NCBI GenBank assembly: GCA_963169815.1
Contig: CAUJDC010000039.1
Span: 1 to 48,549, forward strand
Origin: Patescibacteria group bacterium
GTDB taxonomy: Bacteria > Patescibacteriota > Gracilibacteria > UBA1369
DNA length: 48,549 nt
Reading direction: 5' to 3'
Below the pieces are notes generated by a model that had not been told where the DNA came from, made no database searches, and saw only the letters and a program-made list of their open reading frames with translations. This document shows, one piece after another, positions 2 to 16,418 of the stretch. The position numbers and the translations under genes are program-made. Each line of letters opens with the position of its first letter. The first letter of the stretch is position 1.

Positions 2-2326
2 AATTTGCATAAACACGCTGCTGATCCGCTCTTGAGTGGAATCACTGAAAGTCCGCATTATTTCTACCTGCCGTCTGGCGACACTGAAGCCGTGTCTGAA
101 AAAGGAGTCATGACCCGTTTCAGCTACGAGGAAGACACCGTGCAGGAAGATTCCCAAAACATTGAAGTTGTAAATGATGACTTTCAAGGCTATGAAAACA
201 ATTACAAAGTCATCACGAATTTTGATAACGAAGCGGGCGAAACCTACACAGGCGGATCATTCGACACGTCAGAATACAAACAAGGAACCCAAGCCAGAAA
301 ACTAAGTCTCACTACCGACAGCACGGCAACGCTTCTTATCGATATTCCGAGCAAAAACATCTCGACATTTTCTGGTTCCGACAAAATTGAATTCTGGGTT
401 TATGTGAGTACGTTGGCCAATATCGATATGGCTACGCTTCAGCTCGGATCGACCACGCCCTCAACAAACTATTTCCAAAACAACTTCCTTTCCCAGCTCG
501 TGCAAAACGGCTGGAACCGCATATCGATACCGATGAGCGGATTCACTCAAAACGGATCGCCGAACTGGAATAACATCATCCGCGTTAGGCTTGAATTCTC
601 GACCAACACCAACGGCGCTTCAGACTTTATTGCCGACAGCATGCGCGTTGTGAAGGCTGCGAACACCACAAACACATTCTGGTCTAACGATGAAGGCTTC
701 TGGGAAATCCATGAATTCAGCGGTTTGAAGCGCTACGTGAAAACGGATGAAGCTTCGGGCGATAAAAACAGCATTCTCTCGCTTGGAAATCAGAGCCGTA
801 ATTATTTGAACGGAATATTTACGGCGCGAATCAGGCGCCTGCAAGGGTCGCTGAACTCGGGAATCAAGTGGCGTTACACCTCTCCATCCAGCTGCTACCA
901 CGCCTACTTCACTGGAACTGAGCTCAAATTTGCAAAGAACGGCGGAACTGTAATCCAAAGCGTTGCTTTTCCAATCAGTGCGAATACCGATTACTGGCTT
1001 CGCGTAGCTTTCAATGGCAATTCGGTTGTGATTTCGACCTCTCTCGACGGGATCACATTCACGGCTCAAATCAGCATGACTGATTCAAGCATTACGACCG
1101 CAGGACAGGTCGCGCTATTTGATAGCGGAAACATCACTGCATTCGACAAAGTTATCCTGCAGCAAACCTCTATCACCTACGAACGCGACGCAGCTGATCG
1201 TCTCGTGAAGATCGAAGAAAATACGGGCGAAGGCGACAAGTTCGACGGCTTCGGCTCGTTCTTCAAACGCATAGCCACATTTGAGGTCGACGAAAATGTC
1301 ATGACTGGGGGCGTCGCGGATATAGCAAACTACAAAACGGGAAGCCGAGGATGGAAAGTCAGCGCCGCGTCTTCGTATGCCTACGACAATACATTGAGCC
1401 TCGACCTGACCAAATTTGAGGACGGGATAAGCTCGGCCAACACGGACGTGATTGCCTTCTGGGCTTATATCGCCACCGAAGTGCCGACATCAATCCGTCT
1501 TGAACTTTCAGAAACGCAGGACGTGAAGGAAGCGGAGACCATTATCAACGCAGCCAGTCTGGCACTCGGCTGGAATTACATCGAAGTGGCGAAGTCCGCC
1601 TTCACGACGATCGGCGGATTCGATTGGTCGTCCGTAAAACAAGTCCGTTTCTGGTATGCCCACGGAAACAACAATCCTCAAGTGACTTTCGACTCAATCC
1701 AGCTCGTGAAAAGCAACGGGATAGTAACAAGCAAATACGACACGGCAAACGGTAAATGGCTCATAGAAAAAGACATCGAAAATACCAACCAATATTTGGT
1801 GCAATCGGATGAAGTGGCTGGTGAAAAATTCATGGCTCTGAAGACTGACGGTGAAAAAAACATCTTCCAGAACTTTACATATCGGGGAGCCTTCAACGCT
1901 CGGCGCGGTAATGCCTGCGCATTGATCTTCAAGTATCAGGACTCCAACAACTTCCTGCGATTGCAGAGCAAGAACGGCAGGATTTCATTTGTGAAAAGAG
2001 TGGCTGGGATCGATACGGTCTTAGGCGAGGAAATGGCATTCACGCCGAGCGCTGACAACTTCTTCCATTTCAAAGTCGAGTGCGACAGCAATAGCTTCAA
2101 ATATTACTACTCCGAAGACGGCGCGATTTGGATTCTGATCGATGAAGTGACAGCCTCGGATTTCACCGAAGGCCAGATCGGCGTTTTCTCGGAAGGAATG
2201 CTGTTGCGGGTCGACCAGCTCTTTGTCTATGAGCACAACCAAGGCGGTGACACGTTCTACGAGCTCTTTTACGACGATGACGGCAACGTCTCTTCGATTG
2301 TAAAGAAGCCAATAATTGCATCTTAA
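2..2326 (+). CDS. Partial (5'-truncated) large surface/phage tail-type protein with two tandem units of CBM-like + LamG-like domains, each ending in a YD/RHS-like strand
   Basis: ORF open to the window edge; two internal copies of 'F..E..T.GG..D...YK.G.....' (CBM-like) followed by 'FW..../KWLIE...' LamG-like segments, then 'ITYERDAADRLVKIEE' and 'FYELFYDDDGNVSSI'. Confidence 0.7.
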   Translation, partial: NLHKHAADPLLSGITESPHYFYLPSGDTEAVSEKGVMTRFSYEEDTVQEDSQNIEVVNDDFQGYENNYKVITNFDNEAGETYTGGSFDTSEYKQGTQARKLSLTTDSTATLLIDIPSKNISTFSGSDKIEFWVYVSTLANIDMATLQLGSTTPSTNYFQNNFLSQLVQNGWNRISIPMSGFTQNGSPNWNNIIRVRLEFSTNTNGASDFIADSMRVVKAANTTNTFWSNDEGFWEIHEFSGLKRYVKTDEASGDKNSILSLGNQSRNYLNGIFTARIRRLQGSLNSGIKWRYTSPSSCYHAYFTGTELKFAKNGGTVIQSVAFPISANTDYWLRVAFNGNSVVISTSLDGITFTAQISMTDSSITTAGQVALFDSGNITAFDKVILQQTSITYERDAADRLVKIEENTGEGDKFDGFGSFFKRIATFEVDENVMTGGVADIANYKTGSRGWKVSAASSYAYDNTLSLDLTKFEDGISSANTDVIAFWAYIATEVPTSIRLELSETQDVKEAETIINAASLALGWNYIEVAKSAFTTIGGFDWSSVKQVRFWYAHGNNNPQVTFDSIQLVKSNGIVTSKYDTANGKWLIEKDIENTNQYLVQSDEVAGEKFMALKTDGEKNIFQNFTYRGAFNARRGNACALIFKYQDSNNFLRLQSKNGRISFVKRVAGIDTVLGEEMAFTPSADNFFHFKVECDSNSFKYYYSEDGAIWILIDEVTASDFTEGQIGVFSEGMLLRVDQLFVYEHNQGGDTFYELFYDDDGNVSSIVKKPIIAS

Positions 2327-2344
2327 TCATTTAACTAAAACACT

Positions 2345-4759
2345 ATGGCAAATATCACTATCGGCGGCGGATCTGGCTCAGTCTTCAAGGACGCAATTCC
2401 ATCCGCGCTGCAATTCACAAGCTGGGATATCTATCAATGGTTTCAGCAAGGCGGTCAGGGGTTTAACCTCAACTACCAAAACTTCAACTACAACCCTGTT
2501 TATTTCAACCATGTCTTCGATGTGGCAAATAAAAAGTTTTTCGCAATCCCTCAAGGCATGGGAAACAAATACGACTACAAGTACGACAAGCAAAGTCCGA
2601 TCGGAGTCTATAAATATGACCACCAAACTGATACGAGCGTATGGATAGAATTCAATAAAACCGATGTCTACAACAACCGCAGCCGTTTCAGCAATTCCCA
2701 AAACTCAAACTACAACAACATCATTTACGATGAAACCAGCAACAAGCTCTTCTGGCTTTGCTTCAGCGATAAGACGCTCTGGGAAATTGATCAAAGTACT
2801 GGGGCGATGACTCAAAAGACCACATGTACACTAGCTGGAACCATTTGCTCAATCGTCGCATGCAATGGAATTTTGTACGTCATGGATACAAGCAAGAACT
2901 TTGCGAAATATACGATCGCAAGTAACGCGTGGGCTTCCCTTACGACCATGACGGGCTCTGCAAGCATGAGTCAGGGCTATGCTCGGCTTCTCACTGATGG
3001 CTCGGCTTGGGTGGTCTTTGTTCCGTATCAGAATATGCAGACCGCAGGGCAAGAACTCATGAAATACAACATATCCGCCAATACTTGGACAGCGGCGGTT
3101 ACAACAGGTGCCCCAACCAGTAGCAGCTATTACATATCAGAGATATTTAATGGTTTTGTGTACGTTCAGTACCTCGGAACGTCTGATAACTACAGCCAAA
3201 TTTGGAAATACAACATTTCTGGCAACACATGGACGGCGAGTGCATTAAACCTCCGCACGAAGGGTCTAACAAACGGCGGCGCCTATGGCATGTTCCGCGC
3301 AAACAGCAAGCTCTATTGGATTGGTTCGTATGCAGTCAATGACTACAGCGATACTCGCGCAATGCAGAAATACGGAATTTGGGAAATGGATACTGCCGAA
3401 AACTTTACACTCAACGCCAGCAAATTCACTCCCGTACAAATGGGACAGTGGTGTTACGGCCAGCAAGGCGGTTATGAGCAGGACATGATGGCGGCCACAA
3501 AATCAAACGCGCGATATCAAGTCTATTGCGGATTCCATAGCTACGCCCGAGGCTTCCGCTATTTCCCGTACGTTGATCCGACGCTTAAAACCGTAGAATG
3601 GGTGAAAGTACCAATGGAGTCGGGAAAGGAAAAGGAGTGGAGCGGTTGGGGCGCCGTCGTGAAAAATGGAAAACTCTACATGGTTGACCCCGTATCGCTC
3701 GATCTGTTTGTTTGCACGATTGGCACTTGGACTTGGACGAAGAAAGACAACATTTACGCTCGCATCGGAAATAAAATGCCGTACAGCGTGCATGGAGATG
3801 AATGGAATTTGGGTTGCGGTCTTGCATATTTGAGCGGAGCGACTCCGCATCAGCTTGTAGGCGGATTGTTTACCGTAAAGGAAGATGCTACGAACATCTA
3901 CCTGATGGCGCCTCGATACGGATCGAATGATTACGTCTACGTATACAAATACGATGTCGTGGCAAACCAATGGAGCGTCTTGAACACCTCGGGGTCAATG
4001 CCGAACGCCTATCTCGGAAATAACACTTCGCAATCAAGTTATGCGATGTGGAAGAGTCATCTGATCACATCAAACGAAGCCAGCACATGGTTGCTTCTGA
4101 CGTCTCACTGCTATAACAGCACGACTCAATATTTCGTTCAGAGATACTACGCATTCAATCCGACCGACGGCTCATTTGAAGCGGTGGTTGGATATAACCA
4201 CACAAGCCAATGGTATGGAGTTTACGGCTTCACGCTTGAAGGAAAGCCCATCTGGCACACAAGCACTAGTGACAGCAAGCTCTATTACAACGACATGAGC
4301 ACAATGGCTTATGACGTTACAAATAAGCTGCTCGAACAATTCCTGAATGACCAAAACAAATATATCTGGATGCAAAGCACGTTCTGCCAGAACGCGGTAG
4401 CTATCTTCAATTTGGATTCCAGCAACTTCGAAAAGTGCTTCATGCTTCGAATGGATATCAGTAGCACACAAGGAGCGGTAAACCAGATTTGGGGATTCTA
4501 TCAGCAAATCGATGCCGTGAAGGGAGGGTATCTTCTCGGTTGGGCAAGAAACGCATCGTTGAGCTCACCGTACCGATACGGCCGAATCATGATCGATAAC
4601 GACAATGTTCGATCGGTCATCGTAAATGACGCACTGCCATCATCGGTTGTTGACTCAGCCACGGTATTCACCACAAAGGTCAAAAAGAACTTCAAACTTT
4701 ATCTCGAATATTGGTGCTACAACAACGGTCTTGTGACCTTCTTTGCGCCAGCCAATTAA
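2345..4759 (+). CDS. Kelch-like beta-propeller protein, probable phage structural/adhesin protein
   Basis: 804 aa; repeated 'KYNISxNTWTA..', 'KYDVVANQWSVLN', 'YFVQRYYAFNPTDGSFEAV' blades; directly downstream of the first ORF. Confidence 0.65.
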   Translation: MANITIGGGSGSVFKDAIPSALQFTSWDIYQWFQQGGQGFNLNYQNFNYNPVYFNHVFDVANKKFFAIPQGMGNKYDYKYDKQSPIGVYKYDHQTDTSVWIEFNKTDVYNNRSRFSNSQNSNYNNIIYDETSNKLFWLCFSDKTLWEIDQSTGAMTQKTTCTLAGTICSIVACNGILYVMDTSKNFAKYTIASNAWASLTTMTGSASMSQGYARLLTDGSAWVVFVPYQNMQTAGQELMKYNISANTWTAAVTTGAPTSSSYYISEIFNGFVYVQYLGTSDNYSQIWKYNISGNTWTASALNLRTKGLTNGGAYGMFRANSKLYWIGSYAVNDYSDTRAMQKYGIWEMDTAENFTLNASKFTPVQMGQWCYGQQGGYEQDMMAATKSNARYQVYCGFHSYARGFRYFPYVDPTLKTVEWVKVPMESGKEKEWSGWGAVVKNGKLYMVDPVSLDLFVCTIGTWTWTKKDNIYARIGNKMPYSVHGDEWNLGCGLAYLSGATPHQLVGGLFTVKEDATNIYLMAPRYGSNDYVYVYKYDVVANQWSVLNTSGSMPNAYLGNNTSQSSYAMWKSHLITSNEASTWLLLTSHCYNSTTQYFVQRYYAFNPTDGSFEAVVGYNHTSQWYGVYGFTLEGKPIWHTSTSDSKLYYNDMSTMAYDVTNKLLEQFLNDQNKYIWMQSTFCQNAVAIFNLDSSNFEKCFMLRMDISSTQGAVNQIWGFYQQIDAVKGGYLLGWARNASLSSPYRYGRIMIDNDNVRSVIVNDALPSSVVDSATVFTTKVKKNFKLYLEYWCYNNGLVTFFAPAN

Positions 4760-4778
4760 TCATTAACCACATAACATT

Positions 4779-5264
4779 ATGAAATTCTACAAAGCAAAAC
4801 ACTCGGTAGTCAGCGAAGGTGTTGAAGCCACCGTCGTGTACCACAAAGATAACGGCGATGAGCTGGTCTGCGTGCGCGAAGGCGCCGAAGCTTTCGAAGA
4901 ACAAAATCCAGACGCCAAAGAACAAACCGTTGTCGAGGCTGACAAGCTTCTGGGAAAAGAGAGCGTAAAAATTTCAGTGCCTACAAAAGCTGAGATTCGA
5001 AAACAAAAACCGCTAACAAAGGAAGAAATAACGTCTGAAATTGAAAATGCGGAGACTTTGACCGCTGATATTTCCGTGGTCGAGGAAAAAGACAAGGAAG
5101 GTAAGGCTGTTCAAAAGCTGACGTACTTCGAGAATCGGGAAATCAAGTCGGTCGAGGATTTTCTCAAGGCTCAGGAAGAACAACAAAAAGAGCTGGAGCA
5201 TGTAGCGCCAGCCGATGAGGTTGCACTAGAGGAAACCAAAACAGACACCGAAGAGAAATTGTAA
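4779..5264 (+). CDS. Small charged hypothetical protein of the phage-like module
   Basis: 161 aa ORF with the same leader motif as its neighbours; no recognised family. Confidence 0.6.
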   Translation: MKFYKAKHSVVSEGVEATVVYHKDNGDELVCVREGAEAFEEQNPDAKEQTVVEADKLLGKESVKISVPTKAEIRKQKPLTKEEITSEIENAETLTADISVVEEKDKEGKAVQKLTYFENREIKSVEDFLKAQEEQQKELEHVAPADEVALEETKTDTEEKL

Positions 5265-5283
5265 TCATTAACCCCGTTATTGT

Positions 5284-6009
5284 ATGCCAAAACTATACTT
5301 AATTGCTGGGCACACTCAGGGCAAAGATGAAGGTGCTCAGAACCTGAAAACCAAAGAAACCGAAAACATGATTGCAAGGAATATTCTTTTGCAGGTATTC
5401 CCGAAGATCAAAGAGCAGATATTTACCGATCTTTGTCCTTTCGACCTGACTCTTGAAGAGCAGACGAAATGGATCAATAAAAGGGCAAGCGAAAACGATT
5501 ACGTCGTTTGCTGCCATTTGAACTCCTCGCCCGAGCGCAAAGAAACAGGCGCCCTCTGCTTTTACTATGGCGGAAGCGAAGAGAGTAAAGCAAAGGCCGA
5601 TAAATTCCTAAAAGCCTACTGCCAAGAAATCGGTCTGAGAAACGCTGGATTGCTGGCCGATACCCAGAGTCGATTCGGCCGACTCGGGATTGTGAGGGAT
5701 ACCAAGGGATGGGCATTCCTGTTGGAAATGGGCTCAATCAATAATGATATAGAAACCGTGAAGACTAAGGGAGCTCAAGCCCTGATTGAGGCTTTGCAGG
5801 CGCTTGTTGGCCTGCCTGACGCGCCTGTGGCAGCTAACCAGCTCTTTACCGATGTTCCCGCCACACACCCCGATTTTGAGGCTGTTAAGTGGGCGAAGGA
5901 AAAAGGTGTCGCTGCGGGATACCCAGACGGCAGGCTTGGCGTCGATGAACCGCTTAAAGTAGGCCGATTCTTGTCATTTCTCAAAAAATATGATAACTTA
6001 CCTAAGTAA
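5284..6009 (+). CDS. N-acetylmuramoyl-L-alanine amidase (Amidase_3-like) with C-terminal SLH domain; endolysin-like
   Basis: 'LYLIAGHTQGKDEGA', 'CCHLNSSPERKETGALCFYYGG', 'FLLEMGSINN'; C-terminal 'FTDVPATHPDFEAVKWAKEKGVAAGYPDGRLGVDEPLKVG' is an SLH motif. Confidence 0.75.
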   Translation: MPKLYLIAGHTQGKDEGAQNLKTKETENMIARNILLQVFPKIKEQIFTDLCPFDLTLEEQTKWINKRASENDYVVCCHLNSSPERKETGALCFYYGGSEESKAKADKFLKAYCQEIGLRNAGLLADTQSRFGRLGIVRDTKGWAFLLEMGSINNDIETVKTKGAQALIEALQALVGLPDAPVAANQLFTDVPATHPDFEAVKWAKEKGVAAGYPDGRLGVDEPLKVGRFLSFLKKYDNLPK

Positions 6010-6421: not shown

Positions 6422-7177
6422 TTACTCCCAGGGATATACTAGTTTATTGTTTTCAGTTATTACTTCATGGATTGTATCAAAATAAACTTCTAAAAATTTG
6501 TGTATCTCTTTTGAATCGTTCTTAATTTTTCGTTTCCACTTTTTTCTTACTTCTCTAAAAACCAGTTCGCGCCCTAATTTAATGTTTTTCACGAACTCGT
6601 CATCTGAAGATTTGGTAAGTACTTCAAATAGGCTAAGCCTGTCAACATCACTGTCGGCATACCTTGCAACATGGACATGGGAACCTCTAACTTTTATATA
6701 GTTCTCAAACATTTTTTCAACTAGATTTTTCAAATTAGTAGCTTTCTTGCTTACTTTCTCACTTATTCTGGATTTTTTATATGCTCGCTCTATTGTTGTT
6801 AAATAAACTAAAAGTCTTAATCGTAATATATATAATTCTTGCAAGTAATTCTCTATGTTGTACCGAATATAACTCACTTTTGAAACTTGTTTTTCTTGAA
6901 ATGGAAATACGCCTATGTATATAGGAATATTTTGAATTGATTCATAAGAATTGGCTATCTCGTAAAAAGGCCTAAACAGCTTGTTTACTATAAGATTATC
7001 TTCTCTGTCTAACTTTGCACCAGTAAGTTGAGTGGGTTCTGATCCTAAAAGTTGGTTTACAAAGATTTTCTCTAATTCTCTTTTTTTAGTTTTTTTACGA
7101 AATAATTTTATTTTTTTAACTGAAAGCTTAGAAAGAAAACTGCTGTAAACTTTTATTTTTCTTGTATAAAAATCCAT
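6422..7177 (-). CDS. Hypothetical protein, possibly HEPN-like
   Basis: 251 aa, Lys/Arg-rich, helical; contains 'VRGSHVHVARYADSDVDRLSLFEVL' with an R-x4-H arrangement. Confidence 0.5.
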   Translation of the reverse strand: MDFYTRKIKVYSSFLSKLSVKKIKLFRKKTKKRELEKIFVNQLLGSEPTQLTGAKLDREDNLIVNKLFRPFYEIANSYESIQNIPIYIGVFPFQEKQVSKVSYIRYNIENYLQELYILRLRLLVYLTTIERAYKKSRISEKVSKKATNLKNLVEKMFENYIKVRGSHVHVARYADSDVDRLSLFEVLTKSSDDEFVKNIKLGRELVFREVRKKWKRKIKNDSKEIHKFLEVYFDTIHEVITENNKLVYPWE

Positions 7178-7292
7178 ATTAGCAAAAATTAAATATATTT
7201 TTACAATGAGTAAACTAGCTTCAGTATATTTGATTATTTCCTGAGATTAAATGAGAATTAGCATTTTCTACACAACAGATATGAGAAACTGA

Positions 7293-7544
7293 GTTCTGCT
7301 GCTTGGAGCATACGCTCTCTTTGCAATACTCTGTCTCACCAGCTTTGCATTTTCGAGAAAAAGAAAACCAGATGAACAAGTAGCAATCGTGATAAGCCGC
7401 ATTTACATGAACAATGCCTTAGCATTTGTCTTAGCGTCTAAATTCTTTACTCCAGAAGTAACATTGATAACTATCTTGGCAGAGATAACCTGGTTTACAA
7501 CATTTGGATTGTATCTATGGTTTCAAAAACGGTTTATTGATTAA
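7293..7544 (+). pseudogene. C-terminal remnant of a membrane transporter, possibly bile acid:sodium symporter (SBF)-like
   Basis: Open frame without start: LLLGAYALFAILCLTSFAFSRKRKPDEQVAIVISRIYMNNALAFVLASKFFTPEVTLITILAEITWFTTFGLYLWFQKRFID*; preceded in frame by TGA at 7290. Confidence 0.45.
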
Positions 7545-7693: not shown

Positions 7694-8293
7694 TTACAAC
7701 AGCTCACTTGAAAAACTTGTTCCTAAATAATTGAATTGTTTAAACCCCTCAGCGTGTTCACATCGGCATCTTGAGCCGTATAACCTTGTTAGCATCTCTA
7801 CTTTCTCAATATAGAATTCTGGCCCTTGTGACTTAAATGGCATGATCATAGATCTTTTCCGTTCGATAACAGAGCTTACATCAACATATTTCGTAGGACT
7901 AAACTCTCCGTATAAACCTAACTTATTATACGTATCGCAAAAGAAAAATTGTGTAGGTTTTTTATGTTTTATCCAACATTGCTTGACCGCTCTAAGTACA
8001 TCAAGACTAGTTTGTCTGTGATCGGGATGACTGTCTTCATCCCAATGAGTAATAAGGATATCTGGAATGACAGCAGTCAACCTATCCCTTAAAAGACCAA
8101 CTGTTTTGTAGTAAGACACGTCAAATCCTGAAACAATACTTGATTCTTCTTGCTCTTTTTTTCTAAGTTTATCTTGCGTATCTCTGATGATAACATTCAC
8201 TTGATGTCCATTGTCCTTGTAGTTTAACAATGTCCCCCCTGCCCACAATTCTGCATCATCTATATGTGCTCCAATGTATGTGATCTTAAGCAT
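7694..8293 (-). CDS. PIG-L/LmbE family N-acetylglucosaminyl deacetylase-like protein
   Basis: 'ITYIGAHIDDAELWAGGTL' (xHxDD) and 'DSHPDHRQTS' (HPDH) motifs. Confidence 0.88.
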   Translation of the reverse strand: MLKITYIGAHIDDAELWAGGTLLNYKDNGHQVNVIIRDTQDKLRKKEQEESSIVSGFDVSYYKTVGLLRDRLTAVIPDILITHWDEDSHPDHRQTSLDVLRAVKQCWIKHKKPTQFFFCDTYNKLGLYGEFSPTKYVDVSSVIERKRSMIMPFKSQGPEFYIEKVEMLTRLYGSRCRCEHAEGFKQFNYLGTSFSSELL

Positions 8294-8309
8294 AAGTAAT
8301 ATATAATAA

Positions 8310-9476
8310 CTATTTCAATTCAGATAAGGCTTCAATCAACTTATCTATAGACGTTATTTTTATTTTATCTTCTGCTGTCTCATAGCGAACCCCCAACAAA
8401 GATAGAGCTTTTGTGATACCTCTATCGCATTCTGATAGGCCCCATTTCTTATACAATTCTATTGTTCTTAATAACACTCTTAAAATACTACTTTCAAGAT
8501 CATTTTCTAACCTAAAATTCGTAACTCTAACCTTTAGCTCGGATTCACTTAAAGACCTGACCCGACTATCTTTAGCAAATGAATCATTCTCCCATTGTTC
8601 AATAGGTGAAAGCCCATTGAGAACTGTAATGATAGCTCTTCTACTATTTACTTTTAATTTTGCTCCAGGAGAAAATTTGAAATTATCGTATTTTGTGCCA
8701 AGTGCTACCATCTTTCTGCCGATAATTCTATCTATAAAACTTCTATCCAAAGAATACCCGCCGACTTCAGCATATACGCTTGACCTAAAACCAAAATTGG
8801 CACCTGGAGTTGGAATATAGTTTCGCTTGTTTCGGTGATAGGCTTGAACGTATTGCATAAATCTCAGCCCCACTTGTAATTCAGGCAAATCTTTAAAGTA
8901 TTGAGCGTCCCAGTCTAATATACCGTGAGAACATGGAGACTCTCCTAAATTGGTAACATGACTTTCCATAAACCTCTCACCTAAACCTTGTGTATCAGCA
9001 TCTACAGATATCAATCCATGATCATAATGTGTGTCATTTTGCAATATTCTGTATAAAATTACGTCAGCTATTTCTTTTCTAACCCTTCCAATAGAAAGGT
9101 TAGCATATTTTCTAACAAAATATGCTATAGAAGGTATCTTATTTTTTTGGCCTTCCTTGAAATTTTCCAGATTTTCGGCTAAAAGTTTAGCCTTTTGTTC
9201 ATCGAAACTATTAGCATGTTGATAGTTGATGTTAGCAACTATTTCATATTTAGAAGGGTCTAGTGTTTGATTTAGAGCAAGTAATCTAATAGTCGACAAG
9301 AGCCCTGAAGGACTTTCTTCAGAGGATACTGGCAACATGACGGAAACAATATGACGACCATCCAGTGGGGGTATCTGCTTTGAAATAGCATCAATCTCTG
9401 ACAAGTAACCTGCATCTTGTAAGTTTAGGTATGATGATAATTTATTTCCTACACTAGAGTGCATGGATTTGTACAA
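8310..9476 (-). CDS. GT2-like (GT-A fold) glycosyltransferase
   Basis: 'VSVMLPVSSEESPSGLLSTIRLL', 'SVDADTQGLGERF' (DxD-like), 'GANFGFRSSVYAEVGGY'. Confidence 0.7.
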   Translation of the reverse strand: MYKSMHSSVGNKLSSYLNLQDAGYLSEIDAISKQIPPLDGRHIVSVMLPVSSEESPSGLLSTIRLLALNQTLDPSKYEIVANINYQHANSFDEQKAKLLAENLENFKEGQKNKIPSIAYFVRKYANLSIGRVRKEIADVILYRILQNDTHYDHGLISVDADTQGLGERFMESHVTNLGESPCSHGILDWDAQYFKDLPELQVGLRFMQYVQAYHRNKRNYIPTPGANFGFRSSVYAEVGGYSLDRSFIDRIIGRKMVALGTKYDNFKFSPGAKLKVNSRRAIITVLNGLSPIEQWENDSFAKDSRVRSLSESELKVRVTNFRLENDLESSILRVLLRTIELYKKWGLSECDRGITKALSLLGVRYETAEDKIKITSIDKLIEALSELK

Positions 9477-9477
9477 A

Positions 9478-10692
9478 TCATTTTTTTAAAATAGCCCACT
9501 TATTTTGCCCATACTTTACTTCTACCGCAGAGGAAACCTCTACTAAAAGCCTGCCGTCAGTTGAGATGTTTGTAGCATCAAGTTTTTTGCCGTTTATACT
9601 TACTGCTCCACCTTTTACTAAATTCCTGAATTGGCTTTTGCTTAAAGCAAAATTAGCTTTTGCAAAATCCAATAAATCTATTTCATTTTGACCCACAATG
9701 TAACATGGGGCATCGATGGGTATTGACTTAGACGCTGATCTCTCATAGCTTTCTTCAGCTTCTCCAATAGTCTGGTCGACGTGATACCTTTTCAACATTT
9801 CTTTTGCTAATTTCTTTTTCAAACCTCTAACCCCTTCTCTGGCATCAGCTATAACGCTTACAATTTCCGATGAAGCTAAGTCAGTATAAATATCAAAATA
9901 ATCCTTAATCAATGAATCCGGAATAGACATTATACGTCTATATTGTTCGGCAGCGCTGTGATTTAATCCTATGTAATTTCCAGCTGTCTTACTCTGCTTG
10001 CCTTTGCCATCTGTACCTAAAGTAATTTTGGTGGTTAAAATCGACTGTGGTTCTTGCTTGTAATGACTCTGGAGATCCCTACCCATCATCTCATTAGTGA
10101 GCTGATCATCTCCGCAAACAGCAATGTCTGTTTTTAAATATACTGAGTCGTACCCCTGCAATAGTTGGTAAACAAGTTCGTGAGCATGGATAGGCTCTCC
10201 CTTTTCGATACGACTTTTGAATGTATTTCTTTCGGTTAACTTACTTAAAGTTATTGGCCTTAAAACCCTATGAATAAAACTTAAAGCGTCCATGTCTTTA
10301 AACCAAGCTGAATTTCTATGTACTTTTAAAACTTCAGGATTATTTATCAATACTTTCGTAGCTTGATCGAGGAATTTATCAGCATTAGCTTGGATAGCGT
10401 CTTCATCAAGCTGTGGTCTTTCCAAATTTCTACCTGTTGGATCACCAATCGAAGCCGTAGCATCTCCAATTATCAAATCAACTTTATGACCAATTTCTTG
10501 CATATATCTAAGCACCCATAGATTCACAGCATGGCCAAAATGCATATCTCGTCCTGTTGGATCAGTACCAAATTTAATATTTAATTTTTCCCCATCCTTT
10601 AATCTTCTAAGTAAGCTATCTTTATTTCCGGGGATAACTTTATCAATGACTCTATATAGATGTGAATCTGTTGAAAATTTTTCAATAGTCAT
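9478..10692 (-). CDS. tyrS: Tyrosyl-tRNA synthetase (class I, with C-terminal S4 domain)
   Basis: 'FGTDPTGRDMHFGHAVNLW' (HIGH), 'GKGKQSKTAGNYIGL' (KMSKS-like), 'FALSKSQFRNLVKGGAVSINGKKL' S4 domain. Confidence 0.85.
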   Translation of the reverse strand: MTIEKFSTDSHLYRVIDKVIPGNKDSLLRRLKDGEKLNIKFGTDPTGRDMHFGHAVNLWVLRYMQEIGHKVDLIIGDATASIGDPTGRNLERPQLDEDAIQANADKFLDQATKVLINNPEVLKVHRNSAWFKDMDALSFIHRVLRPITLSKLTERNTFKSRIEKGEPIHAHELVYQLLQGYDSVYLKTDIAVCGDDQLTNEMMGRDLQSHYKQEPQSILTTKITLGTDGKGKQSKTAGNYIGLNHSAAEQYRRIMSIPDSLIKDYFDIYTDLASSEIVSVIADAREGVRGLKKKLAKEMLKRYHVDQTIGEAEESYERSASKSIPIDAPCYIVGQNEIDLLDFAKANFALSKSQFRNLVKGGAVSINGKKLDATNISTDGRLLVEVSSAVEVKYGQNKWAILKK

Positions 10693-10734
10693 ATTATAGG
10701 TTTAATAAGATGTAATTATAGATTTATTCAAAAT

Positions 10735-11673
10735 CTAGTCAAGGGCATATATCACCCTAAATAACGGTAAATATAAATCTTTTTGTCTCATCATCTTGAC
10801 CCCCTTCTCGAATTCTTTAAAAGGAATCTCGTGTGTTATAATAGTCTCCAACTCCGGATGAGCAGTCAGAAAGTCTATTGCTTTAACAAAGTACTTGATT
10901 TTGTAGGCAACTGATGAGGTTAAAACAGCTTCTTTTTGAAAAAGAAGCCTATTGTTGAAAACCAAATTGTAATTTATTGGAAAAACACCTAGTGAAACAA
11001 CTTCCCCCCCTTTTTTAATATGCCTCAAAGAAAGTTCAATAGTCTCTGACTGATCTCTTCCAACTGTCTCGAATACTTTATCGAATAGATTAGACTGGCT
11101 TATCTTGTCAGATGTTACTTTTATCTCTGGCGACAATTTTTGCATAAATGTCCTGGTCGTATTGTGTTTAGACAGTAGAGTTACGTTTTTCCCTAACGAA
11201 TTTAGTACATAAGAAAGCATAACTCCAACTGCCCCGTCCCCAACCACAAGTGCCTCATATTTTAAATCAGAGCTGATTCTCTCATATATAGCATGCAAGC
11301 ATACTGCTACTATATCGCAAAGCACCCCTAATCGTGGTGATAGACTATTAGGCAATAAAAAAACATTTTCTGATGGTAATGTAACAAATTTACTAAAAGC
11401 TCCGTCAATATTCCTGCCTATTGCTCTAAAAAATTCACAGAGATTATCTTGGCTATTAAGACAACTAGAACATTCTTTACAAGGTATAACTGGCATACCA
11501 ACAACATTTCTACCTATCAAATCTTTTTTTTCACTTTGAATAACTTGTCCAACAAATTCATGTCCTAGTTTATGGCTAAAACTATCTATGGGAAAGCCCT
11601 CATTAAGCTTTAACATGTCAGAGCCACATAACCCTGCGTATGTTACTCTTATTGTAGTGGAAAACTCTTTCAT
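10735..11673 (-). CDS. Zinc-dependent medium-chain dehydrogenase (MDR, alcohol/polyol dehydrogenase-like)
   Basis: 'VTYAGLCGSDMLKL', 'GHEFVGQV', 'CKECSSCLNSQDNLC' structural-zinc Cys cluster, 'ALVVGDGAVGVMLSYVL' Rossmann motif. Confidence 0.85.
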   Translation of the reverse strand: MKEFSTTIRVTYAGLCGSDMLKLNEGFPIDSFSHKLGHEFVGQVIQSEKKDLIGRNVVGMPVIPCKECSSCLNSQDNLCEFFRAIGRNIDGAFSKFVTLPSENVFLLPNSLSPRLGVLCDIVAVCLHAIYERISSDLKYEALVVGDGAVGVMLSYVLNSLGKNVTLLSKHNTTRTFMQKLSPEIKVTSDKISQSNLFDKVFETVGRDQSETIELSLRHIKKGGEVVSLGVFPINYNLVFNNRLLFQKEAVLTSSVAYKIKYFVKAIDFLTAHPELETIITHEIPFKEFEKGVKMMRQKDLYLPLFRVIYALD

Positions 11674-11701
11674 ATGACACTTATGAGTATAGAATTGATA
11701 A

Positions 11702-12796
11702 TTAATGTCTTTCGCTTATCTTCTTCCACTTTTCAGATAATTTACAAACATGGTCAGCATATTCTTGCTTAACTTCCTCCCATATTTTACCTCCTTTTGT
11801 GCACGCATCAAACGCCTCTTGAATTTGATTTGGAGAAAACAAACTAGCGTTTGAGATACATTGAAAAATTATATTATCCATGGGTGTGTCATACGCTCCT
11901 TCTCCATTTAAAATTAAATTTCTAATCGCATCAGCTGAATAATCAAGCGTAATCCCAGAATTTGGCATACTTTTACTCATTTTCGGAAAATCATTGAAAC
12001 CTTTAATCAAAGTAGAATACATTGCGGCAATTGAGGCTTCTGAGAGTTTATCATGAAACATTTCACTTATTTTCATTTTTTCTAAAACTGTCTGAGAGAA
12101 TTTGACGTACTTATGCTCATCTATGCCCAATGTAATTAATAGATGTTTCTTCTTATTGTATAGCAATTGGTGATACCAACCAGCTACCATAAGAGCAAGG
12201 GACAGTTTTCTTCTGTAAGTCATGGTAGAATCTACTTTGCCCTGAGAGACGTAAAAGCCATGCAAGTCTTCCTCTGCGGATTCAAAGTCTGTGTCAGTCA
12301 TAAAATGGCTACATAAGTACATTGTCCTCAAGATGTCTAATTCATCGTACTGGTCTCTTAGTTCACTACCATTGCCTTCTATAAAACCAAGTTCCAACAT
12401 AAATCTTCTTGTTTGCTCGCCTATCTCTTTTGTTTTAGATAAACTTGTACCTTTACCATTAAATGCATCTAAATCTCCTAAAACAAATTTAACAGGCATT
12501 CTGCCATATTTCTGCAATTTAACTGCTTTTATGATTTGAGACAGCGTACCAAGATGAGGAGTACCAGAAAGGCCAATACCTGTTATAGCTAGGACATCAT
12601 TATGAGTTTGACCTGCTATTGTTGCAAACTTATCTGCTTTGTAGTGACAAAACCACATAGTAGAAAGATCTGACGGCTTAAGTGTACCCAACTGAAAATC
12701 TATTGGTTTGACTTCATCTCTCATGTTCTCATAACCTCCATCAGACAAGATTTTTTTATAATACTCCTCTCCTATTTCTATGTCTACTTTATTCAT
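11702..12796 (-). CDS. Tryptophanyl-tRNA synthetase-like class Ic aminoacyl-tRNA synthetase or paralog
   Basis: 'GIGLSGTPHLGTLSQ' (HIGH region), 'ITLGIDEHKYVKFSQTVLEKM', 'FPKMSKSMPNSGITLD' (KMSKS). Confidence 0.75.
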   Translation of the reverse strand: MNKVDIEIGEEYYKKILSDGGYENMRDEVKPIDFQLGTLKPSDLSTMWFCHYKADKFATIAGQTHNDVLAITGIGLSGTPHLGTLSQIIKAVKLQKYGRMPVKFVLGDLDAFNGKGTSLSKTKEIGEQTRRFMLELGFIEGNGSELRDQYDELDILRTMYLCSHFMTDTDFESAEEDLHGFYVSQGKVDSTMTYRRKLSLALMVAGWYHQLLYNKKKHLLITLGIDEHKYVKFSQTVLEKMKISEMFHDKLSEASIAAMYSTLIKGFNDFPKMSKSMPNSGITLDYSADAIRNLILNGEGAYDTPMDNIIFQCISNASLFSPNQIQEAFDACTKGGKIWEEVKQEYADHVCKLSEKWKKISERH

Positions 12797-12801
12797 AGTG
12801 T

Positions 12802-13374
12802 TTATTTTATGTAATCTATAAAGGTTTTGCCATCTTCTATAAATTCTGTCCTCATTCCAAGCATCTTTGCTGGGGATAAATCATATTTATCATTATCTCC
12901 AAATACCTTTATAAGCTCTGGAGAAAACTTTGATTCTAGAAGAACACTTCTGTAAGCGTAATACTTATTCGGAGCGTCTAAATTAAATATTTTTACAAAT
13001 GAATCACTACATCCTAATGCATCAAGGAGTGATTTGGTAAATTCTTTTGAGGAGAAAGTTACTAAATACAATGATTGATCTATTTTAGAAAAAATTTCTA
13101 AAAGTTTATTCTCACTTTTAATGAGAGTTCTAATATCTCGTGAAAGTGGCTTCAATACATTTTTGTGCCAAACTCTTAAATCAAGTCCATGGGATTGCAA
13201 ACCATCAATAAAATTTGGGAATTTTTTTTTGAATAATGAAAAACCTGTAGCTGACAAACTTAATTCACTACATAGCCATTGCTTTGTTCTAGCGCTTAAC
13301 TCTAATCCTAAAGGAGATTCCTTTGAGTATATCGTACCGTCCTGGTCAAGTATAAAAGCTTTTTCAGAGCTCAT
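12802..13374 (-). CDS. HAD-superfamily phosphatase
   Basis: 'FILDQDGTIYS' (DxDGT), 'LVTFSS', 'VFGDNDKYDLSPAKMLGM'. Confidence 0.8.
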   Translation of the reverse strand: MSSEKAFILDQDGTIYSKESPLGLELSARTKQWLCSELSLSATGFSLFKKKFPNFIDGLQSHGLDLRVWHKNVLKPLSRDIRTLIKSENKLLEIFSKIDQSLYLVTFSSKEFTKSLLDALGCSDSFVKIFNLDAPNKYYAYRSVLLESKFSPELIKVFGDNDKYDLSPAKMLGMRTEFIEDGKTFIDYIK

Positions 13375-13381
13375 TTGTTTA

Positions 13382-14521
13382 TTATTTATTGAACTGAGGA
13401 TTTAACGTCCCACCAGACAACTCAATTACTTCCCTTAACTTTTCAAATGGTCGTCCAGTTGACAGCTCTTTCGTTGCTAGATCGTATCCTTCTGCTATAT
13501 CTTCAGCCCCTCCTGATAAATAAATCATCGCTGAAGCATTTACTGAGATTACTTTCTGTAAAACTTCTTCTCCTACCCCTTTTAGAACATCCAGAGTCGC
13601 TTTGACATTCTATAACTTATCTTGTTTTTCTCTGATCTGGCTAATGTTATATCTGACATTAAGTCTCAAAAGATCGACCGGATCAGCCATTAAAAGCTCG
13701 CTTTTTTCTTGAGAGGTTCTGCCAAAAACTACTTTATTATACTTGAACAACCCAATCTCATCTATATAGGCCGTCTTATCTTCACTAGAATTTGCAACCA
13801 TTACATGTGAATACCCTAAACCATGAAGTGCGTGTATAGATTTTTTAATATCTGGAAGAGATAATCCATATAGTACTGCGTCAGTCCTTATAGGAGTTAC
13901 CATAGCAGGAAGTGCATACGAAAGACTTGTTGGAGCGAGTAACTTTCCACCGTATAAATGGTCAAATTGAGGAATAGCTGATTCTATAGAGACTAATCCT
14001 AGATTTGTTTTCTTTAAGATTTCTACTGACTCTTCCGCGCCACACAATCTCCCCCCTAAAATTGTGAAAAAATCAGAGGATCCAGTAAGTGACGATGTGG
14101 ATTTTGAACATGGCTTAACTATTTGAGAACCGCACGACGCAGCAACTAAAGCAGCCGGGGTAGAGATATTTACTGTTTTGACTCCTTTTTTACCTGATCC
14201 TGCTACAGTTACCGTATTTTTGCCATTTTTTGACGGTATAGTTATTTGCTTTAAGTAAGCTCCATCTATTTCTAGGACAGTTCTTACTAGATTAATGATA
14301 AATTTTACTGAAGGATCAATGTTGTTACTGTATAGAACGGAGGCCAGATGTAAATCTCGGTCCTTTAATTCGTTTTTTGTATCAAAAATAGTTTGTACAA
14401 CCACTTGAACATCATCTGATACATCTAAACCCGCATTGAGTTTGCTGAAGTAATTAGTTAGAATGTCTCTTGCTTTATTCTGCATAGGACAATTAGTATC
14501 AAGATAACGTAAATTTACCAC
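13382..14521 (-). pseudogene. TrpD/nucleoside phosphoribosyltransferase-like protein interrupted by an in-frame TAG (13610-13612); nonsense mutation or readthrough
   Basis: 303 aa upstream ('TVAGSGKKGVKTVNISTPAALVAASCG', 'SSLTGSSDFFTILGG') ending ...REKQDKL*; same frame continues 75 codons NVKATLDVLKGVGEEVLQKVISVNASAMIYLSGGAEDIAEGYDLATKELSTGRPFEKLREVIELSGGTLNPQFNK*, which matches a TrpD C-terminus. Confidence 0.75.
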
Positions 14522-14532
14522 TTATCAAAAAT

Positions 14533-14946
14533 ATGTCAATAATCTGTATTTTCTGCGAAATAGTAAAAAACACAGAACCCGCAGACATAATCTGGGAGGA
14601 CCGGTATAGTATTTGCTTTGCGCCGCTTAAAATGGAGTCTTTTGGCCATGTATTAGTCTTGCCCAAGAGGCATGTTAAAGATATTTTTGTCGCCGATAAA
14701 AGCGATTTGACCAAAATAGCTGGAGCGCTTAAGGCGGTTTCAAAGATCTTAAAATCAAAACTTGGAGCAACTGGTGTAAATATATTTAATGCGAATGATC
14801 ATAGTGCCCAGCAATCAGTAAATCATTTACACTTTCACGTGATTCCAAGGTTTCCAGATGATAAATTAGATCTTTGGCCGCACTTTCCTAAAAAGAAATT
14901 TGATAAAAAACAGATTTTAAAATCACTAATAAAAAAATATGATTGA
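14533..14946 (+). CDS. HIT (histidine triad) family protein
   Basis: 'CIFCEIV' N-terminus, 'FGHVLVLPKRHV', 'HLHFHVIPRF' triad. Confidence 0.92.
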   Translation: MSIICIFCEIVKNTEPADIIWEDRYSICFAPLKMESFGHVLVLPKRHVKDIFVADKSDLTKIAGALKAVSKILKSKLGATGVNIFNANDHSAQQSVNHLHFHVIPRFPDDKLDLWPHFPKKKFDKKQILKSLIKKYD

Positions 14947-15475
14947 AGTTGAGAGGAAGTTTCGACTGGATGATTCAAAGAAACAAGGTGTTTTGAGTAT
15001 GCTTGAGAATAAAACGCCGCAGGATTTTCATCAAATTGATAAAGTTTTTCTCTTTCAAAATAATTCATTTAAGAATTTCAAGAGAGGGCAACCTGTGATC
15101 AGGATACGCTCATCAAATGGCGTCATTACACTTACTTATAAGCGCGCACTGAATGAAGGTGGTGACATGCTGGAGCATGAAGTAAAAGTTGACTCTGTGG
15201 ACGTTACCCAGGCCATTGTGTTGGAGTTGGGTTATTTATTGGCGACTGATATTGAGAAAAAACGACAAGAATTTAGTTTTGATAATGCAACTGTGAGTCT
15301 GGATGAGGTTGTGGGACTGGGGACTTTTTTGGAAATTGAAATTATGGCTGATGATGAACAGAAAATTGATGATGCCCAAAAGAAGGTTATGGAAATAGCA
15401 GAAAAATTTGGCTTAGGAGAAGCTGAAATCGTGACAAAGAAATATGATCAGCTGATGGAAGAGAAACGTTCTTAA
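14939..15475 (+). CDS. CYTH domain protein (CyaB-like class IV adenylate cyclase / thiamine triphosphatase family)
   Basis: 'MIEVERKFRL' (ExExK), 'VIRIRSSNGVITLTYKR', 'LDEVVGLGTFLEIEI'. Confidence 0.9.
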   Translation: MIEVERKFRLDDSKKQGVLSMLENKTPQDFHQIDKVFLFQNNSFKNFKRGQPVIRIRSSNGVITLTYKRALNEGGDMLEHEVKVDSVDVTQAIVLELGYLLATDIEKKRQEFSFDNATVSLDEVVGLGTFLEIEIMADDEQKIDDAQKKVMEIAEKFGLGEAEIVTKKYDQLMEEKRS

Positions 15476-15968: not shown

Positions 15969-16418
15969 ATGATACAAACAGTAGCCCTAAGAAACAAGCT
16001 TATGTATAAAATTTTTGCCGCCTGCAAAGCATTTGTTAATTATAATGGCAAAATTCTGATTTTGCGCGAGTCCGGAAAATACGAGGATGGAACCAATGTT
16101 GGCCGCTATGACATACCAGGAGGACGCGTTCAGCCTGGTGAAAGTTTTGACCAAGGTTTGATTCGTGAGATCAAAGAAGAAACCGGATTAGATGTAGAAA
16201 TTGGCCGACCATTTGCAGTAGTTGAATGGCGACCAGTGGTGCGAGACGAACAATGACAGATAGTAGCAACTTTCTTTGAGTGCAAAGCTAAAACTGATCA
16301 GGTGGTTTTGAGCGGAGATCATGATAATTTTATTTGGATTGATCCCAAAGATTTTGCGAATTATCCAATCATTGCCAATATGAAAGGAGCTTTTGAGGAC
16401 TATGTGAAATTAAATTAA
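15969..16418 (+). pseudogene. NUDIX hydrolase interrupted by an in-frame TGA (16254-16256)
   Basis: Nudix box 'GGRVQPGESFDQGLIREIKEETGLDVEIG'; after ...VVRDEQ* the same frame continues QIVATFFECKAKTDQVVLSGDHDNFIWIDPKDFANYPIIANMKGAFEDYVKLN*, a typical Nudix C-terminal half. Confidence 0.8.

Follow-up and report, generated by a model that had tools for sequence, protein, structure and literature searches.

A seven-gene operon with a second TyrRS and a divergent TrpRS-like protein in a Patescibacteria genome, possibly for a small-molecule pathway

To our knowledge, few aminoacyl-tRNA synthetase (aaRS) paralogs act as ligases in small-molecule pathways, i.e. MshC, AcmF and SbzA. For ascamycin, an additional, complete AlaRS provides Ala-tRNA and is itself resistant to the product, and an AlaRS-like enzyme transfers the alanine (AcmD/AcmF; PMC12945691); for SB-203208, the extra IleRS SbzA performs the aminoacyl transfer (PMC12945691). 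Mycothiol (MshA, MshB and MshC) and bacillithiol (BshA, BshB and BshC) each depend on a glycosyltransferase (GT), a PIG-L deacetylase and an amino-acid ligase (PMC7278568).

The window analysed here, i.e. the whole contig CAUJDC010000039.1 (48,549 nucleotides) of assembly GCA_963169815.1, belongs to a Patescibacteria group bacterium with a genome of 1,087,992 bases in 59 contigs (completeness 99.89%, contamination 1.15%). It harbours an operon spanning positions 14485 to 7694 on the minus strand, whose seven consecutive genes are present where an earlier note on this DNA had placed them. The operon and the features beside it are as follows.

8-6009, plus strand: prophage-like end with tail-type proteins and an endolysin carrying amidase and S-layer-homology (SLH) domains
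7694..8293, minus strand: PIG-L deacetylase, BshB1-like (PF02585, 43 bits; TIGR04001, 60 bits against a cut-off of 182.5)
8310..9476, minus strand: GT2-like (GT-A type) glycosyltransferase, starting at TTG or an internal ATG, no Pfam match
9478..10692, minus strand: second full-length TyrRS with S4 domain (TIGR00234, 280 bits; cut-off 113.8)
10735..11673, minus strand: zinc-dependent MDR dehydrogenase with a short N-terminus (PF08240, 63 bits)
11702..12796, minus strand: TrpRS-like class Ic synthetase paralog (PF00579, 39 bits; trpS model TIGR00233, 43 bits against a cut-off of 176.75)
12802..13374, minus strand: HAD phosphatase, pyrimidine-5'-nucleotidase-like (TIGR01993, 35 bits, below cut-off; PF00702, 20 bits)
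13382..14485, minus strand: TrpD-like gene, class IV PRTase fold (PF00591, 56 bits; TIGR01245, 69 bits), in-frame TAG at 13610-13612
14533..14946, plus strand: HIT (HinT-type) gene, divergent, possibly associated (PF01230, 63 bits; HLHFHV triad)
14939-15475, plus strand: CYTH (cyaB-type) gene, beside the HIT gene and divergent from the operon

All seven family assignments proposed earlier were upheld, i.e. by Pfam and NCBIfam for the TrpD-like, HAD, TrpRS-like, MDR, TyrRS and PIG-L proteins, and through relatives in other Patescibacteria for the GT2-like protein. These GT relatives are 26-30% identical (best E 7e-38) and have a DAD motif and a GANFxFRSSxYxxVGGY-type motif in common with it. 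The GT family lacks a Pfam model, and at four loci of other Patescibacteria (L038, L039, L040 and L042) the relatives are domains of very large proteins (open frames of 1100-1560 aa). On reading of the sequence, the catalytic motifs are complete in the PIG-L (HIDDAE and HWDEDSHPDH), HAD (DQDGT and GDNDKYD) and MDR (GLCGSD, GHE and four structural Cys) proteins; the top NCBIfam models of the MDR protein are threonine and polyol dehydrogenases, with scores under their cut-offs. Single-sequence structure predictions of the GT and the TrpRS-like protein had mean pLDDT values of 32 and 35, respectively, and were not used.

The operon TyrRS scores well above the TIGR00234 cut-off and retains the Tyr-pocket residues Y175, Q179, D182 and Q197. 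A search of the rest of the genome found a housekeeping tyrS on contig C47 and a trpS on contig C16. Operon and housekeeping TyrRS are 37% identical over residues 26-388, and the operon protein differs at 35 of the 112 columns conserved among about 30 Patescibacteria TyrRSs, which themselves, one badly extracted frame aside, differ at 0-10 such columns. Its changes include CGDDQ for GGTDQ and KQSKT in the KMSKS-type loop. Since its mean identity to these TyrRSs is 35%, compared with 55% among them, the gene did not arise by recent duplication of the native tyrS.

The TrpRS-like protein remains under every TrpRS cut-off (43 bits against 176.75 for TIGR00233) and, judged by these models, is not a recognisable TrpRS. 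It does possess HLGT (HIGH-type) and KMSKS motifs, which makes amino-acid activation plausible. Its closest PDB match is an M. jannaschii-type TyrRS, at an E value that is not confident (0.012), and in this weak alignment Ile71 falls at the position of Tyr32 of M. jannaschii TyrRS. A likewise weak alignment to the TrpRSs of relatives puts a Gly opposite the Asp of MAAD, and at such weakly alignable positions the pocket appears unlike one for Trp. Of the Tyr/Trp-type substrates suggested in the earlier note, tyrosine is supported for the operon TyrRS.

The first gene had been called as an ORF at 13610-14521. The TAG at its supposed end lies in frame, however, and the TrpD frame runs on to a TAA at 13382-13384, while ATG 14485 is a likelier start than GTG 14521. 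Beyond the TAG follow 75 further TrpD-like codons without another lesion, then TAA TAA. With readthrough, the protein scores 111 instead of 69 bits against TIGR01245 (cut-off 199), the match now covering positions 61-329 of 330, and an independent genome search likewise found a single TAG within a PF00591 match (3-251/253). Readthrough also reduces the gap between the TrpD-like and HAD genes from 235 to 7 bp; the tight spacing of the original operon (all gaps 1-42 bp) therefore stands, apart from a 235-bp gap that is due to the TAG. This single TAG could be an assembly error. Reading it as a sense codon by way of the operon aaRSs was rejected, as two of the operon's own genes, those for the MDR and GT proteins, terminate at TAG; it is also disfavoured by the tRNAs, none of the 28 detected (an incomplete list) having a CUA anticodon. 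As a separate observation, the TyrRS frames of six genomes of the same class (G100, G102, G109, G121, G130 and G144) contain 8-18 in-frame TGA codons, as would fit TGA being read as sense in part of this class.

Compared with bona fide TrpDs, the TrpD-like protein, the sole PF00591 protein found in the genome, has GSGKK in place of the GTGGD loop and KPCSKS in place of KHGNRA, and has lost the anthranilate-site Arg; NxST and the DE motif are retained. With 111 bits against 199 even on readthrough, an altered PRPP loop and neither HGN nor the Arg at the anthranilate site, its sequence is not that of an anthranilate PRTase. Most TrpD matches across the phylum belong to ordinary trp operons and have GTGGD. 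A weak TrpD-like match in another genome (G188, locus L089), a frame of about 310 aa, adjoins a radical-SAM-type frame and not trp genes.

We tentatively read the locus as an operon for small-molecule biosynthesis, probably of lateral origin, in which an amino acid is coupled to a sugar-type amine, and would give this reading somewhat less than an even chance. The gene set, its compactness, the second-copy status of the synthetase, the kept catalytic motifs and the non-canonical active sites of the TrpRS-like and TrpD-like proteins are directly established; the substrates, the order of steps, the amino acid and the product are what we infer. The GT would add an N-acetylamino sugar to an acceptor, the PIG-L protein would take off the acetyl group to leave a free amine, and the MDR dehydrogenase would oxidise an alcohol. 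The pair of TrpD-like protein and HAD phosphatase may attach a ribosyl-type unit and strip it of its phosphate. The freed amine would then receive an amino acid, with the operon TyrRS as the presumed source of Tyr-tRNA and/or an additional enzyme tolerant of an inhibitor, and the TrpRS-like protein as candidate aminoacyl ligase or transferase. This coupling could be either ATP-dependent, as with MshC, or aminoacyl-tRNA-dependent, as with AcmF and SbzA, and the product would be an aminoacylated amino-sugar conjugate, by analogy with these systems. Both the logic of GT, PIG-L protein and amino-acid ligase and the idea of ribosylation are plausible but unproven.

Several features speak for this biosynthetic reading, i.e. 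gaps of no more than 42 bp and as little as 1 bp across all seven genes with the TAG read through, housekeeping tyrS and trpS genes elsewhere in the genome, a TyrRS above the tyrS cut-off with its pocket intact, a TrpRS-like protein in which HIGH/KMSKS-type motifs persist though it is far under the TrpRS cut-offs, the complete PIG-L, HAD and MDR motifs, and the parallels with mycothiol, bacillithiol and ascamycin. Against it stand the TAG in the first gene, which could leave the pathway altered or without activity, the altered PRPP loop of the TrpD-like protein, a composition like that of the host, and an operon containing neither transporter nor regulator gene. Comparative support is also absent, since searches of sampled Patescibacteria, phages and plasmids and a narrow GTDB pattern scan turned up no further copy of the operon. 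Relatives of the TrpRS-like protein were likewise found neither in 149 close genomes, 389 genomes from the phylum and phage or plasmid records, nor in the GTDB scan, which relied on exact words of eight residues and is limited to close relatives. The surroundings of one TyrRS relative from that scan (L050) and the loci of related GTs (L131-L133) had no operon in common with the window. The neighbourhood conservation sought in other genomes was thus not found, leaving no independent sign that the gene set works as a unit. Of the two observations that the earlier note had named in advance as speaking against its proposal, an unconserved neighbourhood therefore holds in the genomes searched, whereas the other, that these be the only tyrS and trpS, is contradicted by the copies on C47 and C16.

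If the biosynthetic reading is correct, a Trp/Tyr-type aaRS-paralog ligase alongside sugar enzymes and another complete TyrRS would amount to new chemistry, and to a small-molecule pathway in a lineage, the reduced-genome Patescibacteria, where dedicated ones would be unexpected. It is tempting to go further and to postulate aminoacylated amino-sugar conjugates of a new class, made by a novel Trp/Tyr-type synthetase paralog acting as amide ligase and a TrpD-family enzyme with a non-anthranilate acceptor, but this stronger version is improbable, at well under an even chance. The TrpRS-like and TrpD-like proteins are in any case concrete enzymes open to testing.

Lateral acquisition of the operon is probable from its sequence divergence and its absence in relatives, on which it has to rest because the composition is close to that of the rest of the genome. 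Accordingly, the 'AT-rich block' described before is a weak argument for an island: the GC content of the operon is 0.354, compared with 0.396 over the remaining contig and 0.371-0.379 in stretches elsewhere in the genome. In composition, the true outlier of the window is its left end, the right end of a prophage-like element that runs off at the contig edge, with GC 0.47-0.49 where the host has about 0.38-0.40. As this prophage adjoins the operon, the latter is possibly its cargo, although third-position GC is 0.23-0.33 in six of the seven operon genes (the TrpD-like gene left out) and 0.52-0.59 in the phage genes. Between them lies a 251-aa ORF (6422-7177, minus strand, GC 0.30) of no convincing family. 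The operon was also said to be bounded by decayed genes, which applies at most to the left, where a fragment resembling a membrane protein (about 7251-7543, plus strand; no Pfam match) contains an in-frame TGA; on the right, the HIT gene is intact and starts 11 bp away. Farther out, a NUDIX gene (15969-16256, plus strand) is truncated, with about half of the domain covered. A TTGACA-N16-TAAATT site precedes the first gene (14539-14512); promoter-like sites in this region are no commoner than in shuffled sequence.

It is unlikely, though worth serious attention, that the locus is in decay, i.e. the remnant of an imported pathway beside a prophage, its function lost. The in-frame TAG, the gene fragments close by, the prophage-type genes at 8-6009 and the lack of a counterpart in the relatives searched would all agree with this. 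On the other hand, the six other genes are intact with their catalytic motifs, the 75 codons past the TAG are free of further lesions, and one TAG may equally be an assembly error.

Slightly less probable still is a resistance locus, in which the TyrRS would be a copy tolerant of a tyrosyl-adenylate mimic and the other genes would modify or disarm that mimic, so that the operon protects rather than produces; the adjoining HIT gene may then hydrolyse aminoacyl-nucleotides. The many changes of the TyrRS at otherwise conserved positions, CGDDQ and KQSKT among them, point in this direction, and HIT hydrolases of some clusters do protect against peptide-nucleotide antibiotics (PMC7157772). Yet five further biosynthetic-type enzymes would be superfluous, and the HIT gene lies outside the operon transcription unit. 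In MccH-type immunity proteins the third His of the triad is replaced by Lys (PMC7157772), whereas the HIT protein of the window has the ordinary triad, HLHFHV. It matches the PADLOC ThsC HIT model (62 bits); the seven operon genes have no PADLOC match, and a known defence system was rejected on this basis. As for the adjacent CYTH gene, no more than 7 of 31 relatives have a CYTH match, and outside its own genome every such match is 27-33% identical. Self-resistance as such is compatible with the biosynthetic reading.

A surface-glycan locus, with GT and PIG-L protein modifying a cell-surface sugar and the aaRSs providing amino acids for its aminoacylation, is distinctly unlikely: GT relatives within very large Patescibacteria proteins would suit it, but the operon lacks a flippase, polymerase, sugar-nucleotide enzyme and FemX-like transferase, and the TrpD-like/HAD pair would be left unexplained. 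Finally, the proposal that an island simply captured the genome's housekeeping tyrS and trpS, attractive insofar as the operon TyrRS looks functional, is refuted by the separate genes on C47 and C16 and by the sub-threshold TrpRS-like protein, barring the very remote case that both contigs are contaminants (reported contamination 1.15%).

Among known systems, 2-deoxystreptamine aminoglycosides of the butirosin/ribostamycin type involve the PRTase BtrL, the phosphatase BtrP and GT, PIG-L and MDR steps. By kind of enzyme the operon is similar, with its PRTase-like protein and phosphatase, GT, PIG-L protein and MDR dehydrogenase; unlike those clusters, it has aaRSs and no aminotransferase. The 2-deoxystreptamine pathway itself was excluded, as 2-deoxy-scyllo-inosose synthase belongs to the DHQ synthase family and the genome has no PF01761 match, which 11 of 14 control genomes do.

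With mycothiol and bacillithiol the operon shares a GT, a PIG-L protein and a candidate amino-acid ligase, MshC being an aaRS relative. In contrast, its GT is unrecognisable as MshA or BshA, its PIG-L protein scores far under both equivalog cut-offs (BshB1, 60 bits against 182.5; MshB, 17 against 224), and its ligase candidate is Trp/Tyr-type, not CysRS-type, with no MshC-type (CysRS-like) or BshC family member among the seven proteins.

As for ascamycin, both proteins there are AlaRS-type and AcmF is without ATP-site residues, whereas the operon pairs a TyrRS with a TrpRS-like protein carrying HIGH/KMSKS-type motifs; it also lacks nucleoside-sulfamate genes, and a transfer role of the TrpRS-like protein is putative. 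Nevertheless, the arrangement seen with AcmF and SbzA, i.e. an extra aaRS or aaRS-like gene in a biosynthetic-type operon and the housekeeping copy elsewhere, is found here as well: like the ascamycin and SB-203208 systems, the operon places a complete second aaRS and a divergent aaRS-like protein among biosynthetic-type genes.
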